DNA of 53,004 nt from an uncultured Methanobrevibacter sp. (GTDB lineage Archaea > Methanobacteriota > Methanobacteria > Methanobacteriales > Methanobacteriaceae). Positions 21,516 through 36,366 of this stretch are shown here, piece by piece. The position numbers and the translations under genes were made by a program. The notes beneath the pieces were generated by a model. It did no database searches and was not told where the DNA came from. It was given only the letters and a program-made list of their open reading frames with translations. The stretch covers positions 1-53,004 of the forward strand of contig CACXWH010000004.1 of assembly GCA_902771225.1 (NCBI GenBank), read 5' to 3'. How positions within the stretch are numbered: the first letter of the stretch is position 1; the number at the start of each line of letters is the position of its first letter.

Positions 21516-22739
21516 ATGCAGTACAGACTGATTAAAAAAACCGGTGATGAGATTTTTCCATTGGGTTTTGGCGCAATGAGACTTCCTCTTAAAAACGGTA
21601 AAATTGATAGAAATAAAGCTAAAGAATTAATTTATCATGCCATAAATAAAGGTGTCAATTTTATTGATACTGCATATCTTTATGGCGATAGTGAAACTTT
21701 TTTGGGAGAAATCCTTAAAGGAGAATATGCTGATAAAGTTAAGATATGTACAAAATTACCTGCCATAAATGTTCGAAAATATGAGGACATGGAAGAAATT
21801 TTATCAGAACAGCTTAAAAGACTTCAAAGAGATTCTATTGATTATTATCTAATTCATGCTGTTGATTCAAAAGCCATGAATAGGCTTTTGAAAAAAGACC
21901 TGATTAAATTTTTAAACAATGCCCGAAATGAGGGAAAAATCAGGCATATAGGTTTTTCATATCATGGTCCTAAGGAAGAGTTTCCATTATTAATCGATGT
22001 TTATGATTGGGATGTTGTAATGGTTCAGTATAATTATTTTGATGAGAATGTTCAAGCAAGTATTGAGGGTATTGAATATGCTGCTTCAAAGGATATGGGT
22101 ATTTTTGTAATGGAACCTTTAAAGGGAGGTATACTTGCAGGAAAAATGCCTTCACAGGCTGAAGAAATATTTAAAAAGGCCAATCCTAATAAAAGCAATG
22201 CCCAATGGGCAATGGAATGGGTTTTAAATAATCGCAACATTACTTGTGTTTTATCTGGAATGAACTCTCCAGAACAGCTTGAGGAAAATCTGGAAATTGC
22301 CTATAAGACAACACCTATGTCTATGAGTTTTGAAGATTTAGAAACTGTTGAGATTGTTAAAAGAGTGATGAGGGATTCTTTAAAAATTAACTGCTCAACA
22401 TGCGGATACTGCATGCCATGTCCTAGGGGCGTAAATATTCCCGAATGTATGAAGATATATAATGAGAAATTTTTATTTAACCATAAAGGATTTATAAATC
22501 AATCACTCATGGATTATTTCCAGTACGTATGTGGAATAATGGGTAATTCTGGAAATGCCGGTAAATGTAATGGCTGTGGTAAATGTTTAAGGAAATGCCC
22601 TCAAAAACTGGATATTATCTCTGAATTAAAAAAAGTTAAAAAAGAATTTGAGTTTCCGGGCATGAAATATATCTTGTCATTTGTTCGCCATATCGGTTTT
22701 CCTCTTTATAGACAATTGGTTAAATTATTAAACCGTTAA
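21516..22739 (+). CDS. Aldo/keto reductase fused to a ferredoxin-like domain
   Basis: The 407-aa protein has an N-terminal aldo/keto reductase barrel: GFGAMRLPL, the active-site Asp/Tyr in FIDTAYLYGDSE, Lys in ICTKLP, and His in DYYLIHAVD. A C-terminal iron-sulfur region contains CSTCGYCMPCP (near 290) and CNGCGKCLRKCP (near 350), consistent with two [4Fe-4S] clusters. This fused form (COG1453) is common in anaerobes and may exchange electrons between ferredoxin and a nicotinamide; the substrate is unknown. There is only a weak GTGA upstream of ATG 21516. It seems monocistronic. Confidence 0.9.
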   Translation: MQYRLIKKTGDEIFPLGFGAMRLPLKNGKIDRNKAKELIYHAINKGVNFIDTAYLYGDSETFLGEILKGEYADKVKICTKLPAINVRKYEDMEEILSEQLKRLQRDSIDYYLIHAVDSKAMNRLLKKDLIKFLNNARNEGKIRHIGFSYHGPKEEFPLLIDVYDWDVVMVQYNYFDENVQASIEGIEYAASKDMGIFVMEPLKGGILAGKMPSQAEEIFKKANPNKSNAQWAMEWVLNNRNITCVLSGMNSPEQLEENLEIAYKTTPMSMSFEDLETVEIVKRVMRDSLKINCSTCGYCMPCPRGVNIPECMKIYNEKFLFNHKGFINQSLMDYFQYVCGIMGNSGNAGKCNGCGKCLRKCPQKLDIISELKKVKKEFEFPGMKYILSFVRHIGFPLYRQLVKLLNR

Positions 22740-22818: not shown

Positions 22819-23028
22819 ATGAAATTAGAAGAATTATTGGCTCCATGTCCAAAATGTGGTTCTAAAGATAAGATAGCTCATAGAAAACTGTTAGACAATC
22901 ATCGTGCTCATGCAGAAATGGAAACTGTTAAATGCGAAGAATGCGGCTACATTTTCTTTGTAAATGAAAATATGGACGAGGATGAGAAAAAGAAATTATT
23001 GAATGAACTAAATAAAGTGTATGGTTAA
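22819..23028 (+). CDS. 69-aa Cys-rich (zinc-ribbon-like) protein paired with a radical SAM enzyme
   Basis: This small acidic protein has two CxxCG pairs, CPKCG (residues 10-14) and CEECG (near 39-43), and a charged helical tail (DEDEKKKLLNELNKVYG). AAGGTGA precedes ATG 22819. It overlaps the radical SAM/SPASM gene by 8 bases. From memory, TIGRFAM defines a methanogen family of Cys-rich peptides (TIGR04165) paired with radical SAM family TIGR04083; this gene may be that peptide, but I cannot check the model. The alternative is an ordinary zinc ribbon acting as scaffold or metal carrier. Confidence 0.85.
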   Translation: MKLEELLAPCPKCGSKDKIAHRKLLDNHRAHAEMETVKCEECGYIFFVNENMDEDEKKKLLNELNKVYG

Positions 23029-24157
23029 AATGACATTTCACGTAATGATTATCCCTACACTAAACTGTCCGTCTAATTGTAAATATTGTTGGGGTTCAGA
23101 AAATAAAAAAGAAATGATGGATATTGAAATCATTGATCAAATTATTTCCTGGTTAGATGGTTTTAGAGATGATAAGGTTCATTTCACATTCCATGGCGGT
23201 GAACCTCTCCTTACAGGATATGACTTTTATGAAACTGCTCTTGAAAAATTATCCAAATTACCAAATTTAGATGGATTTTCACTTCAAAGCAATATTTGGC
23301 TTTTAACTGATGAATTAATAGATTTATTCATAAAATACAACGTTATTGTAAGTACAAGTATTGACGGGCCAAAAGAAATCAATGATTATCAAAGAGGGGA
23401 AGGCTACTTTGATAAAACAATGACAAAATTCAGATTAGCTAAAGATAAAGGGTTAATAATTAATTTTGTTTTAACAGTAACCGATTATTCAAAGGATTAC
23501 TCAGATGAATTATATGATTTCTTTAAAAGCGAAAAAATGAATTTAAAAATTCATGCTGCACTTCCATCTTTAAGGGGAGATAATGCAGATCCCTGGGCGC
23601 TTGATCAGGAAGATCATGGGCAATTGCTTATCGATTGGCTGGATAAATATCTCTATGATTTGGATAAATTCACCGTAATGGATTTAGACCATATCTGCAA
23701 ATCCAGTTTAAGAAGAAGGGGAACGCTATGTACCTTTGCAGACTGTATTGGAACAACTCTGGCCGTAGGCTCTGACGGTTCAATATATCCGTGTTACAGA
23801 TTTGTTGGAATGGATGAGTATGTTTTAGGTAATGTTAAAGATAATCCTGGTTTTGATGATTTAAAGGAATCAGAGGCATGGAAAAAGCTTCAGGAATTCA
23901 GGGATTATGTTGGTGAAAACTGTAAAAAATGTCGCCATGTTAAATATTGCGAAGGAGGTTGTCCTTATAATGCAATTGTTGCCTATCAAACAACTAAAGC
24001 AGTTGACCCGCAATGTACAGCATATAAAATGATTTTTGGAGAAGTTTCCAAAAGAATGAATAAGGAATTTGCTAAATCTGCATTTGGTTTAGGCCAGCCT
24101 TCTCCTAAAAAAGAAGGTGAAGCATTCAGCATAATGGATTTGGCCATGAAACCTTAG
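23021..24157 (+). CDS. Radical SAM/SPASM peptide-modifying enzyme
   Basis: The 378-aa protein has the radical SAM cluster motif CPSNCKYC near residue 14, FTFHGGEPLL (SAM-binding GGE) near 60, and a C-terminal SPASM region with Cys in CTFADCIGTTLAVGSDGSIYPC, then NCKKCRHVKYCEGGCPYNA and a final DPQC, suited to two auxiliary [4Fe-4S] clusters. SPASM enzymes mostly modify ribosomal peptides or mature enzymes. The overlap with the upstream Cys-rich gene makes that protein the likely partner. I place it tentatively in the methanogen family TIGR04083. ATG 23021 is used; ATG 23030 is an alternative without overlap. Confidence 0.9.
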   Translation: MVKMTFHVMIIPTLNCPSNCKYCWGSENKKEMMDIEIIDQIISWLDGFRDDKVHFTFHGGEPLLTGYDFYETALEKLSKLPNLDGFSLQSNIWLLTDELIDLFIKYNVIVSTSIDGPKEINDYQRGEGYFDKTMTKFRLAKDKGLIINFVLTVTDYSKDYSDELYDFFKSEKMNLKIHAALPSLRGDNADPWALDQEDHGQLLIDWLDKYLYDLDKFTVMDLDHICKSSLRRRGTLCTFADCIGTTLAVGSDGSIYPCYRFVGMDEYVLGNVKDNPGFDDLKESEAWKKLQEFRDYVGENCKKCRHVKYCEGGCPYNAIVAYQTTKAVDPQCTAYKMIFGEVSKRMNKEFAKSAFGLGQPSPKKEGEAFSIMDLAMKP

Positions 24158-24181: not shown

Positions 24182-26077
24182 TTAATCATTTTTGATCTTT
24201 AAGCATAATAATGTCATGTCATCATATTGTTTTGCATCTTTGGTGAAATCATGGATGTCATTTAATAATGGTCTGATTGGATTTTCATCACTTTCAAATT
24301 CATTAAAGAAATTTAAAAGTCTATCTTCACCATACATCTTGTCATTTTTATTGGTGGCATCTGTTATTCCGTCTGTATATAATATTATTTCATTTGTTAA
24401 ATTAATCTCGTCTAACACATAGTCATAATCTTCAAAAACACCTAAAGCAATTTCAGAATCAATATTTAAATATTTAAATTCATCATTTTCTTTTATTAAT
24501 GGGGGATTGTGTCCCGCATTAGAAAATATTAATTTTTTAGTTGTTTTGTTATATATTCCCAGCCATAATGTAAGAAACATGGATTCAGGATTATTTTCAC
24601 ATAACTCATTATTAATTTGATATAAAACTTTTGATGGGTTGTGTTCATGTTTTAATATCTGTTTGATTGTCTTTTGGGTAGTCATTGCAACTAATGCGGC
24701 AGGAACTCCTTTGTCTGATACATCCCCAATTACAATAGCTAAATTGTTCTCATCTAGCATGTAATAATCAAAAAAGTCTCCTCCAACTTCTTTTGCTGGA
24801 TGGGAATAACCATTTACAATAAAATCGTTATTTTCAATTTTTCCGGTTGGAAGTGCAGATGCCTGAATTTTAGTTGCAATATCAAGTTCGGCATTAATAC
24901 GCTCTTTTTCACTTTCAATTTTATGGATATTTTCAATGTATCTGTTGTTGTAGTTAATTAAATCAGTATATGAACGGGCTAGGGTACCAATTTCCGTATC
25001 TTTATTAATATATCTGGAATAAATATTTAATAATCTTTCAGAGTCTATTTTTTCATTTTCACGAATGGAACTCTTAATTTTTGAAAATGATACAATAGGT
25101 TCAATAACTTTAATTTCAATATATCTTAAAACGGCTAATGATGGAATAAAGAAAATAAGTAACAAAATGTCCATTATTAATATCATTGAGATTAGAATTA
25201 TACTTTTTGTCAATGGAATGATTTTCTGGATTATTGCAATTAATGAGGAATCATAAGATAGGTAGATGCCAATAATCATGATGAATAATGTTATTAAAAG
25301 AAAAATGTTCATTATTTCTTCAGGAGTAGATTTTTTATTGTTTATTGTTATATCTGAAGTAATCGGTTTTGTCAAATAAGCAAATAAAATTAACGAAAGA
25401 GTTATTAACTCAATAATGACGATGTAGTCATTTAAAACGAAACAACAATCAATAATCAGTGTTAATGTCAGGGATAATATTAATAAAATTATTAAAATTT
25501 TGTATAATTTTTCATTGACTTCTTTTTTGGATGTTTTTGGAATGTATGTAAGCTTATATTTATTGGATAGCCATATTCCAATTATTCCCATAATAAATGA
25601 TGCATTAATCATATTTAAGAAGTATAGGATTTCAATTAAATTAATTATTGGAATTGTGCCAGGATATATTAAATAAGCCAATTTTCCATGTAATATGGAA
25701 TATAAGGCTCCACAAAGAAGAATTATCTCTAAATATATAGTAAGGTTTGGAGTGTTGTTTAATTTTGGTTGTGTAACTTCATTTCGTTTTTTATAGTTGA
25801 CATACCACAATTTATATGCAAGGTAAGATACTCCAAAACTAACTATGCCAGATAATAGGGAACTGATTATGTCGGTACCCTTTATGCAGTCACATATTAT
25901 GTTCGCGACCACAGAACCGACTGCACCATATGGTCCGAAAATTAATCCGGAAGCTATTAATAATCCAATTTGCGGACTAAATGATTCACTAACATTCATT
26001 TTAGAAATATAAATTCCTAAATCAATAATTAACATTAAAATAAAAGGAATTCCAATTTGCTTTAATTTTTCATTCAT
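24182..26077 (-). CDS. Membrane-anchored SpoIIE/RsbU-type PP2C serine phosphatase
   Basis: The 631-aa protein starts with about ten membrane segments in two blocks (residues 8-190 and 195-325), followed by a HAMP-like linker and coiled coil (residues 325-400). The C-terminal phosphatase has the metal-binding motifs AKEVGGDFFD, IGDVSDKGVPAAL, NAGHNPP, LYTDGITDA and DDMTLLCLK, complete for a SpoIIE-type PP2C enzyme. It should dephosphorylate the STAS protein encoded two genes upstream in the same operon. The membrane part probably senses a signal or envelope state, unknown which. Its ATG overlaps the kinase stop codon (TAATG), so translation is likely coupled. Confidence 0.92.
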   Translation of the reverse strand: MNEKLKQIGIPFILMLIIDLGIYISKMNVSESFSPQIGLLIASGLIFGPYGAVGSVVANIICDCIKGTDIISSLLSGIVSFGVSYLAYKLWYVNYKKRNEVTQPKLNNTPNLTIYLEIILLCGALYSILHGKLAYLIYPGTIPIINLIEILYFLNMINASFIMGIIGIWLSNKYKLTYIPKTSKKEVNEKLYKILIILLILSLTLTLIIDCCFVLNDYIVIIELITLSLILFAYLTKPITSDITINNKKSTPEEIMNIFLLITLFIMIIGIYLSYDSSLIAIIQKIIPLTKSIILISMILIMDILLLIFFIPSLAVLRYIEIKVIEPIVSFSKIKSSIRENEKIDSERLLNIYSRYINKDTEIGTLARSYTDLINYNNRYIENIHKIESEKERINAELDIATKIQASALPTGKIENNDFIVNGYSHPAKEVGGDFFDYYMLDENNLAIVIGDVSDKGVPAALVAMTTQKTIKQILKHEHNPSKVLYQINNELCENNPESMFLTLWLGIYNKTTKKLIFSNAGHNPPLIKENDEFKYLNIDSEIALGVFEDYDYVLDEINLTNEIILYTDGITDATNKNDKMYGEDRLLNFFNEFESDENPIRPLLNDIHDFTKDAKQYDDMTLLCLKIKND

Positions 26078-26454
26078 TATTCCACTCTTTTAGTAATTTT
26101 CAGATGATTTTCACTATTCAGATAATCATATGATATGCCATCAGCCATTTGTTTAGTTAAGAATATGCCTAAACCACCAATTTGAGCTTCATCAATATTG
26201 TCCGGAAGTTTTGGACTTTCTTTTGTGAGTGGATTAAATTCAATTCCATTATCGATAAACTCAAGTGTTAATATGGGTGTGTTAAATTCAACATTAACGG
26301 TTATAAAATCTGTTTTTGAATAATTTATGATATTGGAGAGTATTTCTTCAACAATTAAATTAACCTGAAGATTTTCTTCGGGAAGTTCATTTAAAATAAA
26401 TTCATTTAAGTTATATAGTTCATTAAATTCAGGTTTCAACGTTATTGAATTCAT
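26077..26454 (-). CDS. RsbW-like serine kinase (HATPase)
   Basis: The 125-aa GHKL ATPase of the anti-sigma kinase type shows an N box (VEEILSNIINYS), a G1 box (DNGIEFNPLT) and an intact glycine-rich G2 box (IGGLGIFLTKQM). Such kinases phosphorylate a STAS protein and switch partners. Archaea have no sigma factors, so the classic target is absent and the output must be another protein. It lies between the STAS gene (ATGA overlap) and the phosphatase gene (TAATG overlap). Its nearest relative in the window is the C-terminal domain of the MATE exporter, which shares EEILxNII and GIEFNP. Confidence 0.92.
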   Translation of the reverse strand: MNSITLKPEFNELYNLNEFILNELPEENLQVNLIVEEILSNIINYSKTDFITVNVEFNTPILTLEFIDNGIEFNPLTKESPKLPDNIDEAQIGGLGIFLTKQMADGISYDYLNSENHLKITKRVE

Positions 26455-26759
26455 TCTATCTTTAAGATTTTGTCAAAACCAGACATTCTGAATATTTCTT
26501 TAACACTATCATCAACATTTTTAATAACAAATGGAATATTTTCAGATTTTAATTTTTTTTGGGTTGCAATTAAAACTCTAAGTCCTGCACTTGAAATATA
26601 TTCTAAATCAGTGAAATCTAATATTAATGATTCAAAATTTCCTATTTCATCGTTGATTTCTTTATCAAGGTCTTTTGAAGTAATAGTATCAATACGACCT
26701 TTGACAGACAATGTTAATTCCTTTTCATTGAAATTTTTTGTAATATCCATAATAATCAT
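26451..26759 (-). CDS. STAS-domain protein (anti-sigma-factor-antagonist type)
   Basis: The 102-aa single STAS domain resembles RsbV/SpoIIAA. The conserved segment LEYISSAGLRVLIATQKKLK contains the probable phosphorylation site, Ser57 in ISSAG. The N-terminal strand and the VDDSVKEIFRMSGFDKIL helix fit the family. As first gene of the operon it should be the phosphate-carrying switch between the RsbW-like kinase and the PP2C phosphatase. ATG 26759 is used; the ATG at 26750, three codons in, is an alternative. The operon is divergent from the NRPS gene, with about 96 bases between them. Confidence 0.9.
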   Translation of the reverse strand: MIIMDITKNFNEKELTLSVKGRIDTITSKDLDKEINDEIGNFESLILDFTDLEYISSAGLRVLIATQKKLKSENIPFVIKNVDDSVKEIFRMSGFDKILKIE

Positions 26760-26855
26760 CTAAATTAATCTATATATTGTTATTTAGTTAGTATTAACAT
26801 TTAAGTATTTTGATAAACAAAATTAGCATATATATATTATATCTAGGTGAATTTA
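26760..26855. promoter_or_regulatory. Divergent promoter region of the switch operon and the NRPS
   Basis: These 96 bases must hold promoters for both directions. TATA-like stretches include ATATATTG/CAATATAT at 26771-26778 (for the leftward operon) and the AT-rich 26790-26812 (for the NRPS). AGGTGA at 26845-26850 is the NRPS ribosome binding site. No clear long inverted repeat is visible, so any operator is unidentified. Confidence 0.45.
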
Positions 26856-29800
26856 ATGAATTTGTTTAACTTATCTTCCGCTCAGAGAATGATATTATTT
26901 TCAGAGGTAAATAATCCGGATAATGATTCTTTTTACCTTAACATTAGGAAAGATTATGATTTGAAGGATTTTGACTATGTAAAATCAGCTATTACAACTA
27001 TTTGTCAATGTTATTTAAATTTACAAATTAAATATGATGAAAATGGTGATTTCAAACAGTATTATGCTGAAAGCAAGGATGTTAATGTTGACACATTTGA
27101 AGTGAATGACGAAAACATTGATGAGTTTATTAAAGAATATTTAAATCAACCTTTTGGAGATATTTTTGATTCACCATTATATAGGTGGGCTGTTTTAAAA
27201 ACGGATTCTTCAACAGTTCTTGTCGGTGTTGTTCATCATATTTTGCTTGATGGAACATCACTCTATTCACTGGTTCCTCAAGAAATTGAAAAATATATGT
27301 ATTGCATCAAGAATAATGAGGAATATTCGCCTATAGATTATTCTTACAGCACCTATGTTGATGCCGAACTTGATTATTTAAATTCTGAAGATGCTAATGC
27401 TGATAAAGAATATTGGTTGGACACATTAAAGGATTATTCTCAGGATTGGTATTCTTTTGATGATTCGCAACTCGGGTATTTGGAAGTTCTTCTTGATGAA
27501 GCTCCCGACTTTGGTTATTCTCCTTTCGTTACTGCATTGGCGCTACATTTCTTATACTTCGCAAAATCTAAGAATGATAATGAGTCATTTAAAGATTTGA
27601 TTTTTAATACCTCTGTTCATGGAAGGTACTTTAATCAAGGTGATGCACTGGGAATGTTTGTAAATACAATTCCTTTAAGATTGGAATATGACGAGGAATT
27701 GACTTTTGATGAATTGCTCAAATATTCAAAATCCGTATTAAAAAGCGGTTTAACTCATGCTAAATTACAATTCAGTGAATATACAACTGATTTAAGAAAT
27801 ATGGGCATCCATCCGAATTGTGTTTATATGTTTTCTATAGTTTCAAACTCTACAGATCATGATTCAAAATTCATAACAACCCAAAAAAATATTAATTTCC
27901 CTCTACATTTTAGAATAAACAAGGATTTATCTGATAATGATGGATTACAATCTGTATTTATTGAATATGATAAAGCCTGCTTCAATTTAAATGAAATAGA
28001 ATCAATGGCATTGAGTCTTAAAGATTTGCTTAGGCAGGTGATTGAGAATCCTTCTAAAAAATGTAAGGATTATAATGTGGATGTTATAGACTTTTTTAAA
28101 GCTGAAAATTACTATAATAACTTAATTAATTCATTTGCATATCCAACTACAATATCTCCAGATGTAAGCGACGTTCAAAGTAATTTTGAAACAATATATC
28201 AATCATTCAGTCTTGAAAAGTTAAAGAAGCTATCTGATATGTATGATGTTAACTATGAAGAATTGTTTTTATCAATATTTTTATATAATCTGACCAAGTT
28301 TTCATTTTCTAAAGATATACTCGTAGCTTATAATTTACAGGCTGCAGGATATCATTTCAACACAGATTTATCAATTAAACAATATTTTGATAGTTTTAAA
28401 AATGAATTTAAAGAGTTTAAATACTATCCTTTATTTAATAATAAAAAATTAAATTTTGAAAGTGAAATATTGTTTGATACTCGAAATAGCAATTATGAAA
28501 ATTATAAGTTCATATTTTCAGTTGATAATAATTATTTGAATTTGACCTATGATTCTTCATATTATTCTCCTAAATTAATTGAAAGCTTTTTAACGGCTTT
28601 TAATGTATTAATCGATAAATTTGATAAACCAAATGATTTATTAAAAGATATTTCAATTTTAGAAGATGTAGATTGTGATGAAGGCTTTGAAATCACTCTT
28701 AAAAATGATGGTGTCATCAGTAAACTGTTTGAGAATGCTGTTGAGCAAAATCCCGATAAGTGCATATTGTATGCCGATGATGGGGAATATACTTATTCCA
28801 AATTAAATAGGAAAGCTAATAAAATTGCAAATGCTTTAATCAAAAGAGGATTGAAATTAGAGGATAAAGTAATGTTTATAATGAAGAGAAACAGTGATTT
28901 AATAGCCACTGTTTTGGGAATTATAAAGGCTGGTGGAGCATTTATTCCTATAGATCCTAAATATCCTAGAAATAGGATTGAACAAATTTTAGATGATAGT
29001 GATTCAAAATTTGTTATTATTGATGATGAAATTGACTTTGATATTGAAAATACTATTAAAGTTAATGAATTACTTGAAGAAGATGATGATACAAATCCTG
29101 ATGTTTGTATAACTCCAGATAATTTATGTTTCCTAATTTACACTTCAGGATCAACCGGTAAACCTAAGGGTGTAATGATAACTCATAGGGGAATATCAAA
29201 TTATATTGCATATGATGAGAAGAATGTTCCGATTTATGAGTTAAATAATAAATGTGATAAGTTTGTTTCAATATCTACTGTTTCTTTTATTGTATTTTTA
29301 AGAGAAATCTTTGGAACAATAATGAATGGGCTTCCAGTTGTCTTTGCTAATGATGAGCAGTCAATTGATCCGTTTAAATTATCAGAATTATTTATAAAAA
29401 CTGGTGCTGATGGTTTTGGTTCCACTCCTACAAGATTGCTTGAGTACTTAAGATTAACTGAAATTCAAGACATTCTTAAAAAATGTAAGGTTCTTATAGT
29501 CGGTGGAGAAGCATTTCCTCCAATATTGTATGATAAATTATCTAAAGTCACTAATGCTGATATCTATAACTCTTACGGTCCAACTGAAGTTACAATAGCT
29601 TCACATTATAAATTAATTGACAGTGATGTCGTTTCTGCAGGTTGGCCAATGCTTAATGTAGTTGATAAGATAATGGATATTGATGGAAACGAATTGCCTC
29701 CACATGTTCCTGGCGAAATATATGTTGGTGGGGCAGGAATTGCCAGAGGTTATTTAAACAATCCAGAACAAACAGAAAAAGTCTTTTTAACCTTAAACAA

Positions 29801-32800
29801 TATTCCTTATTATAATACTGGAGATTTAGGTAAAAAAGATGAGTATGGGGAGTTATATACTCTAGGTAGGAATGATACACAAATCAAGCTTCGAGGTTTG
29901 AGAATTGAACTTTCAGAAATTGAAGGTGCAATTGCGAATTATGACGATGTGTTGCTAACCAAAGTTGTAGTAAAAACCATTAATTCCATCGAGCATCTAT
30001 GTGCATATTACACAGCAGTTAGTGAAATAGATCAGGATGAATTGAATAAATACTTGGAAGATAATTTGCCAGATTATATGGTTCCATCTTATTATACTCA
30101 ATTAGAGGAATTCCCAAAAACTCCAAACGGCAAAACCGACTTTAAAAATTTACCTGACCCAAAAATTGATGTTGAAGAATTAATAAGTCCTAAAAGTGAT
30201 GTTGAAAAAGGAATTTATGATATTGTATGTGAAATTTTAGGCATCACAGACTTTGGAATAAATACTGATTTATTCAAAATAGGTTTAACTTCACTATCAG
30301 TTATCAAACTTTCTTCTTCATTATTTAAAGAATTTGGGGTCGAATTAAGCATTATAGAACTTATTAATGCGAAAAACATTGAAAATATTTCCGAACTTAT
30401 CGAGGCACACAATACAAGTAAAAAAATGGTCATGGAAGATAATTACGAATTGACTCCAAATCAATTGGGTGTTTACTTTGATTGTATAAAAAATCCTGAG
30501 AGAATAGGATATAACCTTCCAAAGAAAATAGTCTTAGATAAAAGCATTGATTCAAATAAATTAAAGGAATCCATTTTAAAAGCTATTGATATACATCCTT
30601 ATTTGAAAAACAGGATTGTAATTGAAGAGGGTAAGGTTTTCAACCAACAGTCCTTTGAAATTGCAGTTGACGAAATTGAAATTGAAGAAATTGATGATTT
30701 GACTCCAGAAATTTTAGATAATTTCATTAAGCCATTCGATATTGTTGATAATCAATTATTCAGATTTAAAATTTATGAAACTTCTTCAAATGTTGTTTTA
30801 TTGGCAGATTTCCATCATTTAATTGTCGATGGTACATCACTGAATATATTATTCAATGATATATCTGCAATTTATGATGATGACGAAGAGAGGTTAGTTG
30901 AAGTTGAAGCAGATGCTTATGAATACATTTCAAATGAGAATAACTTCCAGCTATCAAATCTAAGTAGTGAAAGTGAAGCATTCTTTGATGATATGATGGG
31001 TGATTTCGATGAAGGCACAGTATTGACTACTGATTTGGCGGGTGATGATGAAAATGCCGAATTAGCCAATATAAGGATTGGTTTGGATAAAGGATTGTTG
31101 GAATCTTTTTGCAGTGATAAGAAAATCAGCCCAAACATATTGTTCATGTCTGCAACAGCACTGACACTTACAAAATATATTTCTAATAAGGATATTTTGA
31201 TATCCACTATTTTCAATGGTAGGGATAATTACAAATACCAAAATACTATTGGGATGCTTGTAAAAACATTACCTATAGCCTTTAAAACTGATAGGGATAT
31301 GAATATTGAAGATTACTTCGAATTTATTGCGGATTCATGGTTAAATGTTTTGAATAATTCTTCGTTTAATTATGTAGAAGTTGCAAATAGGTATAATCTA
31401 TATCCCGACTTCTTATATGCGTTCCATGGAAAAATTATAGAAGATATCAATATTGGTGGAAAAACCTATCCTCGCGAATCAATGGAGTATGATTCCCTGA
31501 GATTCAAGTTGGCTTTGAATGTTGTTGAAGTAAACGACGAATTTGTTATTTCAATGGATTATAATGATGCAATTTATTCTAAGGATTATATTTATACTTT
31601 TGGAGAGTCAATAAAAAATATAATTAATCAATTCATTGATAAAAAAGAGAAATTGTCTGCAATAAAAATTAAAGACATTGCAATTGTTCCTGAATGGGAT
31701 GATGCTGAATTCATTGAAGTTGAGACTAAATTGCTTTATGAGTTATTTGAGAAAAATGTTGAGGAGAACCTTGATAAAGTTGCATTAATTAGTTGTGATG
31801 GGCAATTGACTTACGATGAGTTAAACAGAAAAGCTAATCGTGTTGCACATGCCCTTATCAATAGAGGTGTTAAGAGCGGAAGCAAAATCTTGCACATGCT
31901 TCCTAGAACAAGTGATTTGATCGTTGCAATGTTTGGTATTATTAAGGCTGGCTGTGCATTTATTCCTTTGGCTAATGATTATCCTGAAGAACGTGTGAAC
32001 TATATATTTGAAAATAGTGATGCGGATTATGTTATTTCTGATTTTGACATTAAAAATGCAGTAGCTGTTTCCACTTTGCTTGATGAGTCAGATGATGAGA
32101 CAAATCCTAAAGTCGATATCACTCCTGATGATTTGGCTTATATGATTTATACTTCAGGCTCTACTGGAAATCCTAAAGGAGTAATGATAACTAACGAAAA
32201 TATCACTAATCTTTTTGCAAATTCTGGTGAAAATTATGTTCATAATGTTTATCAGACTGTAGAAAGCATGTTATCCATCACGACAGTATCATTCGATGCT
32301 TCCATGATTGAGGTATTGGGTTGTTTTGTCAATGGCAGAACCTTAATATTTGCAGATGATAATCAAACTAAAGACATATTTGAATTGGTTGATCTAATTG
32401 AAAGGACAAAACCTGATTATATAGGTTCCACTCCATCTAGATTGCTTCAATATCTGGAATTTGATGGATTTAAAGAAGTATTAAATTCATTTAAGGCCAT
32501 AAAAGTCGGTGGAGAAAAATTCCCTAAAGAGTTACTGGAATCATTATCTGAGTATGACATTGATGTTTACAATTCATATGGTCCAACAGAAACTACTGTC
32601 CAATCAAATTTAAAACACATTGACTTTGATGGAGAAATCAGTGTTGGAAAACCATTATTTAACTATATTACTGAAGTAAGAGATATTGATGATAAATTAT
32701 TGCCTGACGGTGTAATGGGAGAATTATATATTGGAGGGCAAGGAGTAACAAAAGGTTATTATAAAAACCAAGAAAAAACTGATGAAGTTTATCTGTCAAT

Positions 32801-34610
32801 TAATGGAATCAATTACTATAAAAGTGGGGATTATGCAATAAAGAGAAATGATGAGATTTATGTCCAAGGCAGAATGGATAATCAGATTAAACTAAGAGGT
32901 TTGAGAATAGAACCTGGAGAAATTTCCTCTGTAATTTCAACATTTGATGGAATAACAAACGTTGTCGTTGTAATTAAGAAAATCAATGATGTGGATCATT
33001 TATGTGCATATTATAGTGGAAGTGATGAAATTGTAGTTGATGAGTTAAAAGAATATATCTCTTCTAGGTTAACGGATTATATGGTTCCAACAGTATTTAT
33101 GCAATTGGAAAAACTTCCACAAACTCCAAATGGTAAGACTGATATCAAGAATTTACCTGAACCTGAACTAACTAGTGAATATGTGGCTCCTGAAAATGAT
33201 GTTGAAGCATTTTTCGCAAATTGTTTCCAAGAGGTGTTAGGAATTGATAAGGTTGGAGTAACAGATAATTTCTTTGAAATTGGAGGTAATTCATTAATTG
33301 TTACAAAAATTACAATTGAATCAATTAACAATGGATATGATGTAAACTATGCGGATGTATTTGACAATCCAACTCCTAGATTGTTGGCGGATAGTATCTT
33401 ATCAGGTAAAAAATCCACAACAAGTTATGAAGATGACTATGATTACACATTAATCGATAATTTGTTGAAGAAAAATAATCCTAAATCATTCATTGAAGGT
33501 AAATGTGATGAAAGTTTGGGAAATGTGCTGCTTACTGGTGCTACTGGATTTTTAGGTATTCATGTATTGCATGAGGTACTTGAAAGCGAAAACGGTGATG
33601 TTTACTGTTTAGTTAGATCTAAAGGCAAATTAACTGCTGAAAAAAGATTGAAATCCTTGCTATTTTATTACTTTGCAGATGATTTTTCAGAGTTTGATGA
33701 TAGATTGCATGTTGTTGATGGGGACATAACCTCATTAGATGACTTTAAAAAACTGCTCCCATATGATATTAATACCATTATAAACTGTGCAGCTAATGTA
33801 AAACACTTTTCAGCAGGCACAGATATTGAAGATATTAATCTGGGTGGTGTGATAAACGGATTGGAATTTGCAAAACTTATTGATGCAAAATATGTTCAAA
33901 TTTCAACAGTAAGTGTTGCAGGAGAAAGTGTGAATAATTATCCTCCGTCAGATAGAATATTCTCAGAACAAGACCTGTTCATTGGTCAAAGAGTGGATAA
34001 TCAGTATTTAGGCAGTAAATTTTTAGCAGAGCGCCAAGTATTGGAAGCTGCCGCTGAAGATGGTTTGGATGTAAAAATTATGAGAGTTGGAAATTTAATG
34101 GCTAGGAATTCGGATAGTGAATTCCAAATCAATTTTGAATCTAATGGTTTTATAAATAGGATTAAGTCATTTATCACTATTGGTAAGTTTCCGGTTTCAA
34201 TGTTGAATAATAATATTGAATTTAGTCCAATCGACTACACAGCCAAATCTATTTTAAAGTTAGCAAAATCACCAAAAGAATGTGTGGTGTTCCATCCTTG
34301 CAACAATCACAAAATATCATTTGCAGACGTAATTGATATTCTTAAAAATTTAGGATTCGACATTGATGTTGTTAGTGAAGAGGAATTTGAAGCTGCATTG
34401 GCTGAAGTGATGAAAGATGAAGAAAAACAAGCTGGGCTTGAGGGTTTCATCACATCTATCGGTTCTGGACAAGTTAAAAAAGTTTGGGTTAAGGATACTA
34501 ATGATTATACTATCCAAATGTCCTATCTAATGGGTGTTAAATGGCCATTAATATCCGATGAGTATGTTTACAACTTCATGAAGTTCATGAAAGACAGTGA
34601 TTTCTTCTAA
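26856..34610 (+). CDS. Two-module nonribosomal peptide synthetase with reductase release domain
   Basis: The 2584-aa enzyme reads C - partial C - A - PCP - C - A - PCP - R. Condensation motifs are HHILLDG (127) and HHLIVDG (1320). Adenylation motifs YTSGSTGKPKG (near 762) and YTSGSTGNPKG (near 1762) each come with NSYGPTE and NGKTD. Carrier serines are in FKIGLTSLSV (near 1144) and FEIGGNSLIV (near 2144). The terminal SDR-type reductase has LTGATGFLG (near 2222), ISTVSVAGE and YLGSKFLAE. The expected product is a dipeptide, possibly N-acylated because module 1 starts with a C domain, released as an aldehyde or alcohol. A domain 1 lacks the usual amino-binding Asp. ATG 26856, after AGGTGA, is preferred to the in-frame GTG at 26847. 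A phosphopantetheinyl transferase must be encoded elsewhere. Confidence 0.95.
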   Translation: MNLFNLSSAQRMILFSEVNNPDNDSFYLNIRKDYDLKDFDYVKSAITTICQCYLNLQIKYDENGDFKQYYAESKDVNVDTFEVNDENIDEFIKEYLNQPFGDIFDSPLYRWAVLKTDSSTVLVGVVHHILLDGTSLYSLVPQEIEKYMYCIKNNEEYSPIDYSYSTYVDAELDYLNSEDANADKEYWLDTLKDYSQDWYSFDDSQLGYLEVLLDEAPDFGYSPFVTALALHFLYFAKSKNDNESFKDLIFNTSVHGRYFNQGDALGMFVNTIPLRLEYDEELTFDELLKYSKSVLKSGLTHAKLQFSEYTTDLRNMGIHPNCVYMFSIVSNSTDHDSKFITTQKNINFPLHFRINKDLSDNDGLQSVFIEYDKACFNLNEIESMALSLKDLLRQVIENPSKKCKDYNVDVIDFFKAENYYNNLINSFAYPTTISPDVSDVQSNFETIYQSFSLEKLKKLSDMYDVNYEELFLSIFLYNLTKFSFSKDILVAYNLQAAGYHFNTDLSIKQYFDSFKNEFKEFKYYPLFNNKKLNFESEILFDTRNSNYENYKFIFSVDNNYLNLTYDSSYYSPKLIESFLTAFNVLIDKFDKPNDLLKDISILEDVDCDEGFEITLKNDGVISKLFENAVEQNPDKCILYADDGEYTYSKLNRKANKIANALIKRGLKLEDKVMFIMKRNSDLIATVLGIIKAGGAFIPIDPKYPRNRIEQILDDSDSKFVIIDDEIDFDIENTIKVNELLEEDDDTNPDVCITPDNLCFLIYTSGSTGKPKGVMITHRGISNYIAYDEKNVPIYELNNKCDKFVSISTVSFIVFLREIFGTIMNGLPVVFANDEQSIDPFKLSELFIKTGADGFGSTPTRLLEYLRLTEIQDILKKCKVLIVGGEAFPPILYDKLSKVTNADIYNSYGPTEVTIASHYKLIDSDVVSAGWPMLNVVDKIMDIDGNELPPHVPGEIYVGGAGIARGYLNNPEQTEKVFLTLNNIPYYNTGDLGKKDEYGELYTLGRNDTQIKLRGLRIELSEIEGAIANYDDVLLTKVVVKTINSIEHLCAYYTAVSEIDQDELNKYLEDNLPDYMVPSYYTQLEEFPKTPNGKTDFKNLPDPKIDVEELISPKSDVEKGIYDIVCEILGITDFGINTDLFKIGLTSLSVIKLSSSLFKEFGVELSIIELINAKNIENISELIEAHNTSKKMVMEDNYELTPNQLGVYFDCIKNPERIGYNLPKKIVLDKSIDSNKLKESILKAIDIHPYLKNRIVIEEGKVFNQQSFEIAVDEIEIEEIDDLTPEILDNFIKPFDIVDNQLFRFKIYETSSNVVLLADFHHLIVDGTSLNILFNDISAIYDDDEERLVEVEADAYEYISNENNFQLSNLSSESEAFFDDMMGDFDEGTVLTTDLAGDDENAELANIRIGLDKGLLESFCSDKKISPNILFMSATALTLTKYISNKDILISTIFNGRDNYKYQNTIGMLVKTLPIAFKTDRDMNIEDYFEFIADSWLNVLNNSSFNYVEVANRYNLYPDFLYAFHGKIIEDINIGGKTYPRESMEYDSLRFKLALNVVEVNDEFVISMDYNDAIYSKDYIYTFGESIKNIINQFIDKKEKLSAIKIKDIAIVPEWDDAEFIEVETKLLYELFEKNVEENLDKVALISCDGQLTYDELNRKANRVAHALINRGVKSGSKILHMLPRTSDLIVAMFGIIKAGCAFIPLANDYPEERVNYIFENSDADYVISDFDIKNAVAVSTLLDESDDETNPKVDITPDDLAYMIYTSGSTGNPKGVMITNENITNLFANSGENYVHNVYQTVESMLSITTVSFDASMIEVLGCFVNGRTLIFADDNQTKDIFELVDLIERTKPDYIGSTPSRLLQYLEFDGFKEVLNSFKAIKVGGEKFPKELLESLSEYDIDVYNSYGPTETTVQSNLKHIDFDGEISVGKPLFNYITEVRDIDDKLLPDGVMGELYIGGQGVTKGYYKNQEKTDEVYLSINGINYYKSGDYAIKRNDEIYVQGRMDNQIKLRGLRIEPGEISSVISTFDGITNVVVVIKKINDVDHLCAYYSGSDEIVVDELKEYISSRLTDYMVPTVFMQLEKLPQTPNGKTDIKNLPEPELTSEYVAPENDVEAFFANCFQEVLGIDKVGVTDNFFEIGGNSLIVTKITIESINNGYDVNYADVFDNPTPRLLADSILSGKKSTTSYEDDYDYTLIDNLLKKNNPKSFIEGKCDESLGNVLLTGATGFLGIHVLHEVLESENGDVYCLVRSKGKLTAEKRLKSLLFYYFADDFSEFDDRLHVVDGDITSLDDFKKLLPYDINTIINCAANVKHFSAGTDIEDINLGGVINGLEFAKLIDAKYVQISTVSVAGESVNNYPPSDRIFSEQDLFIGQRVDNQYLGSKFLAERQVLEAAAEDGLDVKIMRVGNLMARNSDSEFQINFESNGFINRIKSFITIGKFPVSMLNNNIEFSPIDYTAKSILKLAKSPKECVVFHPCNNHKISFADVIDILKNLGFDIDVVSEEEFEAALAEVMKDEEKQAGLEGFITSIGSGQVKKVWVKDTNDYTIQMSYLMGVKWPLISDEYVYNFMKFMKDSDFF

Positions 34611-34623
34611 ATGAGGTATTGTA

Positions 34624-36366
34624 ATGTATAAAAGGAAGTATGATTTATTAGCAAGTAAATTCAATGAATTTTTCCTGCCGACATTAATGACATCAATGGC
34701 GGGAAATATTTGTTTATTCATTGATTCTATTATTGTTAGTTTCTTAATTGGGGCTATAAATCTATCAGCGATTCAGGTAGCCAGTCCGTTAATAACATTT
34801 ATAAATCTTATTTATTGGATGGTTGGTTTAGGAGGTTCTGTCCTTTGTTCTATTGCAAAATCAGAGTTTGATGAAGAAAAAAGTAATTCACTTTTTTCTG
34901 TTTCTATAATGAGTTTGATTGTTCTTGGAATTCTTGTTTTAATTTTAGGATTGCTTACAAAGGGAACTCTCATTCCGATGTTGACTACAAGTAAAGAGAT
35001 TATTCCTCTCGTTGATGAGTTTTTCACTGTTTTACTATTTGGAATGCCGTTTTTATGTTATCTGATGAGTTTATCATATTTTGTTCGTGCAGATGGCCTT
35101 CCTAATTTGGCATTCCGGTCAATTTTGATATCAAACATTGTAAATATTATCATGGATTTTGTTTATATCGAGGTGTTTGGCTTTGGAATTGGTGGTGCTG
35201 CATTGGCTACTGCAACAGGTTATGCAGTGGGTTCAATTTATGTTAGCACATACTTCTTTAAATCAGAAAGAACTTTAAAATTCTATAGTTTAAGCAAAAT
35301 AAAATTGCGTAATGCCTTAAATTATTTTAAGGAGATTGCAACATCAGGTTTTTCATCAGCTTCCACACAACTATTCTTTACAGTACAATTATTAATATAT
35401 AATGCAGTAATTGGTGTTGTGTTGGGTCAATATGGTTTAACTGCATATAGTGTATGTAGAGGCTGTTCTTATATAATTTACATGTTTCTAATAGGGACTT
35501 CACAGACAATGTCTCCTATTGTATCAGTATATTATCAGGAAGAAGATTATTCCGGTGTCGACTATGTTGTGAAAAGAGCGCTTAAAATTGCATTGGTTTC
35601 AAGTATTGCATTAGTATTGATTTTTACGTTGGTTCCTCAAACAGCACTGACATTATATAGTGTTCATGGCCAGGCTACTCCGACTGTGGTTAATGCTTTA
35701 AGAATATTCATGATTTCTTTTGTTGGTGTTGCAGTAACTTTCTTATTCACTTTCTACACTCAAGCTATTAAAAGAAACAAATTATCTCTATCAACTTCAA
35801 TCATTGAAGGATTCGTTGCTCCTGTTGGATTATTGTTTATTTTGACTCCAATAATGGGAGGTAATGGTATTTGGCTTTCATTTGTAGGTGCTGAAGTAGT
35901 AACAATAATATACATTTTCATTGCTACAAAATACATCTCCAAAAAGACAAATGGTGAATATGGTGGATTCTTCATAAATAAAAAAATGCCAACTAGTGAA
36001 GTATTAGATTTAACCGTTGGAGGTACTTTAAAAGAAACGGTTGATGTAGCACGCCATATAGAAAATTATATAAAAGATTTGGGAATAGATGACAATAAAT
36101 CAATGATTGTGAGTTTATCCGTTGAAGAGATATTGGTGAATATCATTAACATAAATGAAAATCTTGATTCAATAGATGTTCTTGTTAAAATTCAAGAGGA
36201 ACATATTTTGGTAGGTATTAAAGATCAGGGAATTGAATTTAATCCAGTAATTGAAAATGATGATTTGAAATTTGATAATATTTCAGTATTAAATAAAATT
36301 GCTGACAAAATAGACTATTCCCGAGTTTTAGGATTAAACAGCACTGTAATAACTATTAAAATTTAA
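34624..36366 (+). CDS. MATE-family exporter with C-terminal RsbW-like domain
   Basis: Residues 1-445 form a twelve-segment MATE transporter (MatE repeats, with GNICLFIDSIIVSFLIGAIN near the start). Residues 455-580 are a cytosolic GHKL/RsbW-like domain with N box VEEILVNIININE and G1 box DQGIEFNPV, closely resembling the separate kinase at 26077-26454. The glycine-rich G2 box of that kinase (GGLGI) is replaced by FDNISVLN, so ATP binding or kinase activity may be lost while STAS binding could remain. It starts 13 bases after the NRPS stop, with GAGGT at 34612-34616, so it is probably co-transcribed and exports the NRPS product. Confidence 0.92.
   Translation: MYKRKYDLLASKFNEFFLPTLMTSMAGNICLFIDSIIVSFLIGAINLSAIQVASPLITFINLIYWMVGLGGSVLCSIAKSEFDEEKSNSLFSVSIMSLIVLGILVLILGLLTKGTLIPMLTTSKEIIPLVDEFFTVLLFGMPFLCYLMSLSYFVRADGLPNLAFRSILISNIVNIIMDFVYIEVFGFGIGGAALATATGYAVGSIYVSTYFFKSERTLKFYSLSKIKLRNALNYFKEIATSGFSSASTQLFFTVQLLIYNAVIGVVLGQYGLTAYSVCRGCSYIIYMFLIGTSQTMSPIVSVYYQEEDYSGVDYVVKRALKIALVSSIALVLIFTLVPQTALTLYSVHGQATPTVVNALRIFMISFVGVAVTFLFTFYTQAIKRNKLSLSTSIIEGFVAPVGLLFILTPIMGGNGIWLSFVGAEVVTIIYIFIATKYISKKTNGEYGGFFINKKMPTSEVLDLTVGGTLKETVDVARHIENYIKDLGIDDNKSMIVSLSVEEILVNIININENLDSIDVLVKIQEEHILVGIKDQGIEFNPVIENDDLKFDNISVLNKIADKIDYSRVLGLNSTVITIKI

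Follow-up and report, generated by a model that had tools for sequence, protein, structure and literature searches.

In Bacillus, the partner switches SpoIIAA/SpoIIAB/SpoIIE and RsbV/RsbW/RsbU have a sigma factor as their output, and we know of no archaea that use sigma factors. The same three protein families are encoded, beside a nonribosomal peptide synthetase (NRPS) and a MATE exporter, on contig 4 (CACXWH010000004.1) of an uncultured Methanobrevibacter species (GCA_902771225.1, here G000, a 2.36-Mb assembly of 122 contigs), of which positions 1 to 53,004 were analysed; "the window" below means this whole stretch of 53,004 nucleotides. Whereas the Bacillus switches act on a sigma factor, a Pfam profile search of G000 gave no Sigma70_r2 match (in the order Methanobacteriales such matches occur in 7 of 150 genomes, above the cut-off in 5 of 150), so that this switch needs another output. 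We propose, with a probability of about one half, that the output is the exporter itself, gated by the STAS protein on a C-terminal pseudokinase tail.

Direct outputs of related systems have been described. SiaABCD of Pseudomonas aeruginosa likewise joins a PP2C phosphatase, a kinase and a STAS-like protein to a non-sigma output (PMC7647112, PMC8457831), and the direct activation of SiaD by SiaC (PMC8457831) is a precedent for direct output; it differs from the window in acting on a diguanylate cyclase, which is bound at its stalk, and not on a transporter with an anti-sigma-type tail. In MlaFB, the STAS protein MlaB binds a transporter subunit, but the transporter is of the ABC type, MlaB is needed for stability and assembly, and the abstract mentions no kinase/phosphatase switch (PMC7367683). 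Rumen archaea are known to be rich in NRPS genes, with 3.8 clusters per genome on average (PMC8241843). In M. ruminantium M1, the cluster mru0066-0071 (with mru0513-0516) likewise has, side by side, a two-module NRPS, a MatE exporter, an anti-sigma factor antagonist and serine phosphatases, and was read in 2010 as serving sensing, regulation and export (PMC2812497); the first-pass annotation of the window had correctly stated that M1 carries a similar cluster. The second M1 cluster holds a 4'-phosphopantetheinyl transferase (PPTase), kinase, antagonist and phosphatase, whereas in the window the kinase gene is part of the NRPS cluster; the passages on the M1 genes name no kinase-like exporter domain and propose regulation of expression (PMC2812497). 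Within the literature searched, the lid-less anti-sigma-type exporter tail, the reshuffled synteny, the exchange of one synthetase type for another and the idea of direct gating are new; we recognised no publication describing an anti-sigma-type domain on a MATE protein in a search that had most subscription journals and all bioRxiv preprints outside its scope.

The features of the locus are, in window positions:

24182-26077, minus strand: SpoIIE-type (PP2C) membrane phosphatase, 631 amino acids, C-terminal SpoIIE domain at residues 443-628
26077-26454, minus strand: RsbW/SpoIIAB-like serine kinase, 125 amino acids, by Pfam and motifs
26451-26759, minus strand: STAS-only protein of the anti-sigma factor antagonist type, 102 amino acids, by Pfam and TIGR00377
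26760-26846, no strand: divergent intergenic region, 87 bases
26847-34610, plus strand: NRPS with the domain order condensation (C), adenylation (A), thiolation (T), C, A, T, reductase (R), 2587 amino acids from a GTG start, by Pfam and motifs
34624-36366, plus strand: MATE exporter, whole open reading frame (ORF), 580 amino acids
34624-35964, plus strand: transmembrane part of the exporter, residues 1-447, by Pfam and similarity to solved MATE proteins
35965-36363, plus strand: C-terminal exporter domain with predicted SpoIIAB/RsbW fold and no ATP lid (pseudokinase), the proposed STAS docking site

ORFs and Pfam families confirm the layout read earlier from the sequence, in which phosphatase, kinase and STAS genes are divergent from NRPS and exporter, and the switch genes, described as overlapping by 1 to 4 bases, overlap by 4 bases and 1 base; 13 bases separate NRPS and exporter. 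The NRPS is present as annotated, only its length differs: the earlier figure of 2584 amino acids counts from the fourth codon, an ATG.

That the five genes form one unit, as the first-pass annotation had suggested, is well supported. Among the matches listed for 150 genomes of the order, at E <= 1e-25 for the exporter subfamily and E <= 1e-20 for the NRPS condensation domain, exporter and NRPS occur together in 72 genomes, the exporter only in 4, the NRPS only in 6 and neither in 68. The corresponding figures are 72, 12, 6 and 60 for phosphatase and NRPS, and 73, 19, 5 and 53 for STAS and NRPS, all of them counts that ignore relatedness; the last table is looser because its STAS matches include longer, probably unrelated proteins (frames >500 amino acids, probably sulfate-type transporters). 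A phylum-wide search yielded 151 genomes, one more than the order.

Neighbourhoods argue better for the unit than genome-level co-occurrence. They were compared in 100 loci, picked from the exporter matches listed for contig room and spread, together with 13 stretches of G000 and 20 switch loci, and the counts describe this chosen sample and not all genomes; 107 fused exporters of at least 530 amino acids, in 104 loci, were counted and 17 shorter MATE ORFs left out. The five-gene set recurs in several genera, and its gene order takes three forms or more: in the window's genus the switch mostly diverges from NRPS and exporter, all five genes are co-directional in L077, L079, L090 and L092 (NRPS-exporter-STAS-kinase-phosphatase), and L095 has the order STAS-kinase-NRPS-exporter-(PPTase)-phosphatase. 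For 24 of the 107 fused exporters the stretch includes STAS, kinase and phosphatase together, and STAS directly adjoins 11 of the 107; in 15 of the 107 a STAS gene is present with no kinase picked up, some stretches being short and the ORF step missing genes. Two STAS genes at least (L075, L154) escaped the ORF and profile step, so the five-gene counts are too low. The PPTase, which primes NRPSs and which the first-pass annotation did not mention, is often present as a sixth gene: of 86 matches, 43 lie within 3 kb of a SpoIIE phosphatase among those listed, where a rough estimate expects about 0.4. A lack of co-occurrence of NRPS and switch genes in other genomes had been set beforehand as counting against the unit; the two do occur together. 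In G000 itself, condensation domains are matched on eight contigs, and the genome further contains six MATE genes belonging to the exporter's subfamily, four SpoIIE phosphatases and three STAS matches. Contig 48 carries a second, diverged five-gene copy in identical order, with its exporter running off the end of the contig. On contig 85 the genes for a phosphatase and a kinase diverge from an NRPS gene that is likewise cut off by the end of the contig, with no STAS gene between them, and contig 12 has a truncated NRPS, an exporter and a convergent STAS gene.

The exporter matches Pfam MatE at 2.5e-29, and its residues 19-432 are similar to solved MATE proteins (4.1e-23). Its tail of about 130 residues gives a weak HATPase_c_2 match (20.9 bits, below the cut-off of 27.4), which alignment, an AlphaFold2 model and fold comparison strengthen. 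Compared with the cluster's own kinase, the tail reads VEEILVNII against VEEILSNII in the N-box and DQGIEFNP against DNGIEFNP in the G1 box; aligned with kinases it keeps the N-box and DxG, and lacks the ATP lid (about 10 residues) and the GGLG box. The tail models as a SpoIIAB/RsbW-type fold, with a mean predicted local distance difference test score (pLDDT) of 77 and a predicted template modelling score of 0.72 from an input alignment of nine rows. Foldseek placed SpoIIAB, UsfX, RsbW or another anti-sigma F chain at ranks 1-9, structures mostly solved in complex with a STAS antagonist or a sigma factor, and a second structure aligner scored its first ten rows at Z 14.6-16.6, with SiaB at 12.5 and DesK, the best histidine kinase, at 8.6. 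The exporter of L154 yields sequence matches to anti-sigma F (5e-6) and RsbW (6e-5), both under curated cut-offs, and a borderline match to SpoIIAB in the PDB (E-value 0.02). Constraint on the tail is on a par with that on the transporter part: among 41 window-like exporters, mean pairwise identity is 0.740 in the tail and 0.716 in the transporter, and median dN/dS over 332 pairs 0.073 and 0.080. The kinase-like domain announced earlier for the exporter is thus real by alignment and model, but, lacking the ATP lid, it fits the description of a pseudokinase docking domain better than that of a kinase.

The kinase (Pfam HATPase_c_2, 1.5e-12) has, by its sequence, intact motifs (N-box VEEILSNII, G1 DNG, G2 GGLGIFL), and the STAS protein (Pfam STAS 8.5e-18, TIGR00377 above cut-off) carries a YISSAGLR stretch whose conserved serine we take to be the phosphorylation site; a phosphorylation cycle is therefore likely. 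The phosphatase (Pfam SpoIIE, 5.4e-44; 30.8 bits against the SiaA model, whose cut-off is 700 bits) has on its N-terminal side a multi-helix membrane part and a HAMP-like linker, both assigned by eye. A fold for this sensor part was rejected: the model has a pLDDT of 48.6, Foldseek gave no match at E <= 0.001, and the best one, to the ECF S-component ThiT (E 0.22), is too weak. Two membrane SpoIIE phosphatases stand in tandem in L146, L147 and L148, with no kinase or STAS gene picked up in the stretches of L146 and L148.

In the mechanism that we propose, the RsbW-like kinase would phosphorylate the STAS protein, and the membrane phosphatase, triggered by a signal through its membrane part, would dephosphorylate it. 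Unphosphorylated STAS protein would then dock on the lid-less SpoIIAB-fold tail of the exporter and alter its activity, the direction of the effect, activation or block, being a matter of inference, and the NRPS peptide would leave the cell only under the signalled condition. The exporter is proposed as output because its gene is, besides that of the kinase, the one in the unit with a domain of the right fold; being lid-less, the tail may bind a partner yet is not expected to phosphorylate it. An anti-sigma-like domain fused to an exporter offers a concrete, testable answer to what bacterial-type anti-sigma modules do in archaea. If the proposal is right, a transporter joins the direct, non-sigma outputs of partner switches, bacterial partner switching has been repurposed, in cells without sigma factors, for direct control of small-peptide release, and it becomes clear when gut methanogens release the peptides that their NRPS genes promise.

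Fused exporter and switch also pair with enzymes other than NRPSs, which the first-pass annotation did not mention. Switch genes and a fused exporter adjoin two GH3-family genes in M. curvatus (L144, which is the same contig as L161, with identical core-gene ORF coordinates), in Ca. Methanovirga australis (L157) and in L154, whose STAS gene lies at G016:C6:38614-38895; the GH3 assignment comes from Pfam on L144 and from similarity for L157, L154 and L161. The genome of L144 is assigned to the family of G000, in line with an archaeal origin of the unit. L136 (7798-18298) and L137 carry, consecutively, genes for a phosphatase, a STAS protein, a GH3 enzyme, a RimK-like ATP-grasp enzyme, an ABC transporter, an ABC-like ORF (by eye), a second GH3 enzyme and a kinase, with Pfam run on L136 only. 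We infer that exporter and switch are constant and the amide-forming enzyme variable, the ATP-grasp group being a possible exception: in the ATP-grasp-linked exporters (L027:8276-11764 and 11 further loci, two of the ATP-grasp genes checked by Pfam) the G1 aspartate is lost in 10 of 12. Tentatively, and at somewhat less than even odds, Methanobacteriaceae may carry a secretion chassis of modular build: its MATE exporter, with an anti-sigma-type pseudokinase receiver, would be gated post-translationally by STAS protein, kinase and phosphatase, and different amide-forming enzymes (NRPS, GH3, perhaps ATP-grasp ligases) would be plugged into it. The genomes of L136 and L137 have no NRPS match at the threshold; theirs is a switch-linked amide cluster in which ABC genes replace the MATE exporter. 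In L151 (6313-13748) and L155 (6430-12008), SpoIIE-HATPase_c_2 fusions of 736 and 789 amino acids, switch enzymes in one chain, adjoin genes for a STAS protein, a PPTase and another phosphatase. These two proteins had been labelled MATE736 and MATE789 from the tail profile alone and were rejected as exporters on their Pfam matches; the labels MATE362 and MATE372 have the same sole source.

Several observations weigh against direct gating. The input alignment of the tail model held three kinase rows, which favours a SpoIIAB-type fold, and beside NRPS genes the tail residues vary, with N506 in 48 and D534 in 60 of 75 exporters. Only L157 and L161 of the five archaeal GH3-type loci show the whole switch; L160 (M. 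cuticularis) has the STAS gene, two GH3-type genes and the exporter, with no kinase or phosphatase in the stretch, and L158 (3.4 kb) and L159 (12.4 kb) show the exporter alone. Twelve of the 107 fused exporters adjoin ATP-grasp genes with no STAS gene in the fetched stretch, and 18 of the 107 have no adjoining synthetase. Over 39 loci, STAS distances agree with tail distances no better than with transporter distances (partial r -0.06, no excess). In the 24 loci with a whole switch the STAS-tail partial r is 0.40, reached by 1 of 500 permutations that ignore the tree; the kinase-tail value over these 24 loci is 0.43, and the distance correlation therefore does not single out STAS.

The kinase-tail agreement, as good as that of STAS and tail, would suit a reading in which tail and kinase form a mixed dimer that brings kinase and STAS protein to the membrane near the phosphatase, the exporter reporting transport load rather than obeying. 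SpoIIAB-type proteins are dimers, and tail and kinase align as one family; the 15 fused exporters with a STAS gene and no kinase picked up in the stretch speak against such recruitment, which we consider distinctly improbable. The genes might also be neighbours and nothing else, the switch serving a general process and the whole travelling together as a horizontally acquired island. The M1 NRPS genes have been described as possibly bacterial in origin (PMC2812497), and of 84 genomes with a phosphatase, 12 lack an NRPS match at the chosen threshold, among the matches listed. We give this reading very little credence, for membership is kept while gene order is reshuffled, the GH3 clusters keep exporter and switch with no NRPS in the stretch, and PPTase genes lie close to the phosphatase far more often than expected.

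Alternatively, STAS protein and kinase could control an unlinked archaeal transcription factor that activates the NRPS-exporter operon, with the tail as a side element. This would agree with the printed reading of the M1 cluster as environment sensing and control of NRPS expression (PMC2812497) and with a conserved promoter-like element that precedes the NRPS in a number of relatives. We regard it as unlikely: the Pfam matches of the five genes include no DNA-binding domain, G000 has no sigma-70 match, and the conserved lid-less, anti-sigma-like tail would be left unexplained. The element, TTTTAAATATTTTGTTTAA, often lies about 40 bases upstream of the NRPS start in relatives; 19 intergenic matches fall within 250 bases of an NRPS start and 23 before other genes. 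The intergenic region of the window has a degraded copy, recognised by eye, with more than 3 mismatches and outside the counted matches. As a cognate operator TTTTAAATATTTTGTTTAA was set aside, since it looks promoter-like and no regulator could be tied to it. A TetR gene adjoining the cluster in L036 was also dropped as regulator: of its four other matches, none offers a usable near relative beside a cluster laid out in this way.

Relatives of the fused exporter were also sought on the bacterial side, which comprised plasmid records, IMG/VR and one narrow-pattern scan of genome contigs, and we do not assert that the fusion is confined to archaea. Searched by tblastn against plasmid records, the window exporter gave no match past residue 445 in 12 rows and covered 80% in 0 of 40 records; a GH3-type exporter was covered to at least 80% at a place in 3 of 80 records, of which the one inspected, from Ilyobacter, was rejected because it shows a normal MATE gene with a distinct short gene after it. 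IMG/VR yielded no relative of the fused exporter. The contig scan yielded 5 archaeal and 3 Bacteroidales loci, the latter with MATE ORFs of 447-488 amino acids and no tail match.

What the unit makes can be narrowed from the NRPS. Its Pfam domains are Condensation, AMP-binding, PP-binding and NAD_binding_4; HHxxxDG is intact in both C domains, the R domain has TGATGFLG and YxxxK, and the first T domain has GLTS in place of GGxS, with the serine present. Among NCBIfam models the NRPS scores best with the aureusimine synthetase AusA (1011 bits, far below the equivalog cut-off of 2500 bits), which likewise has two modules ending in a reductase domain; the window protein adds an N-terminal C domain with intact HHxxxDG. 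Since these motifs are present and AusA is the best match, the NRPS probably releases a two-residue product, perhaps N-acylated, by reduction, and the predicted dipeptide aldehyde is plausible. Adenylation codes, read at positions that we take to be the usual ones, were compared in 38 of 40 NRPSs (two with three adenylation pieces were left out), all dimodular and including the window's. Module 1 reads IVRGIGSIA in 26 of 38 and IVRGVGSIA in 7 of 38, a code without the usual aspartate at its first position that most of them keep; module 2 is variable, and the window's DAIGKGSVQ occurs once. Module 1 being conserved and module 2 not, this suggests a shared first and a variable second building block. 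No PPTase was found in G000 (PF01648 over 122 contigs; best E 0.05 with a relative's protein), whereas M1 has one; the alternatives are an assembly gap or priming by an unusual enzyme. In L100 and L117, reductase-domain fragments beside the exporters are perhaps broken NRPS genes.

Outside the five genes, window positions 21516-22739 encode an aldo/keto reductase with Fe-S motifs, a candidate for the reduction of a peptide aldehyde; ORFs like it are present in 11 fetched loci, 9 of them within 1.5 kb of a cluster gene. Between it and the phosphatase gene, positions 22819-24157 encode a small zinc-ribbon-like protein and, after it, a radical SAM/SPASM protein; the pair converges on the phosphatase gene across a 24-base gap.

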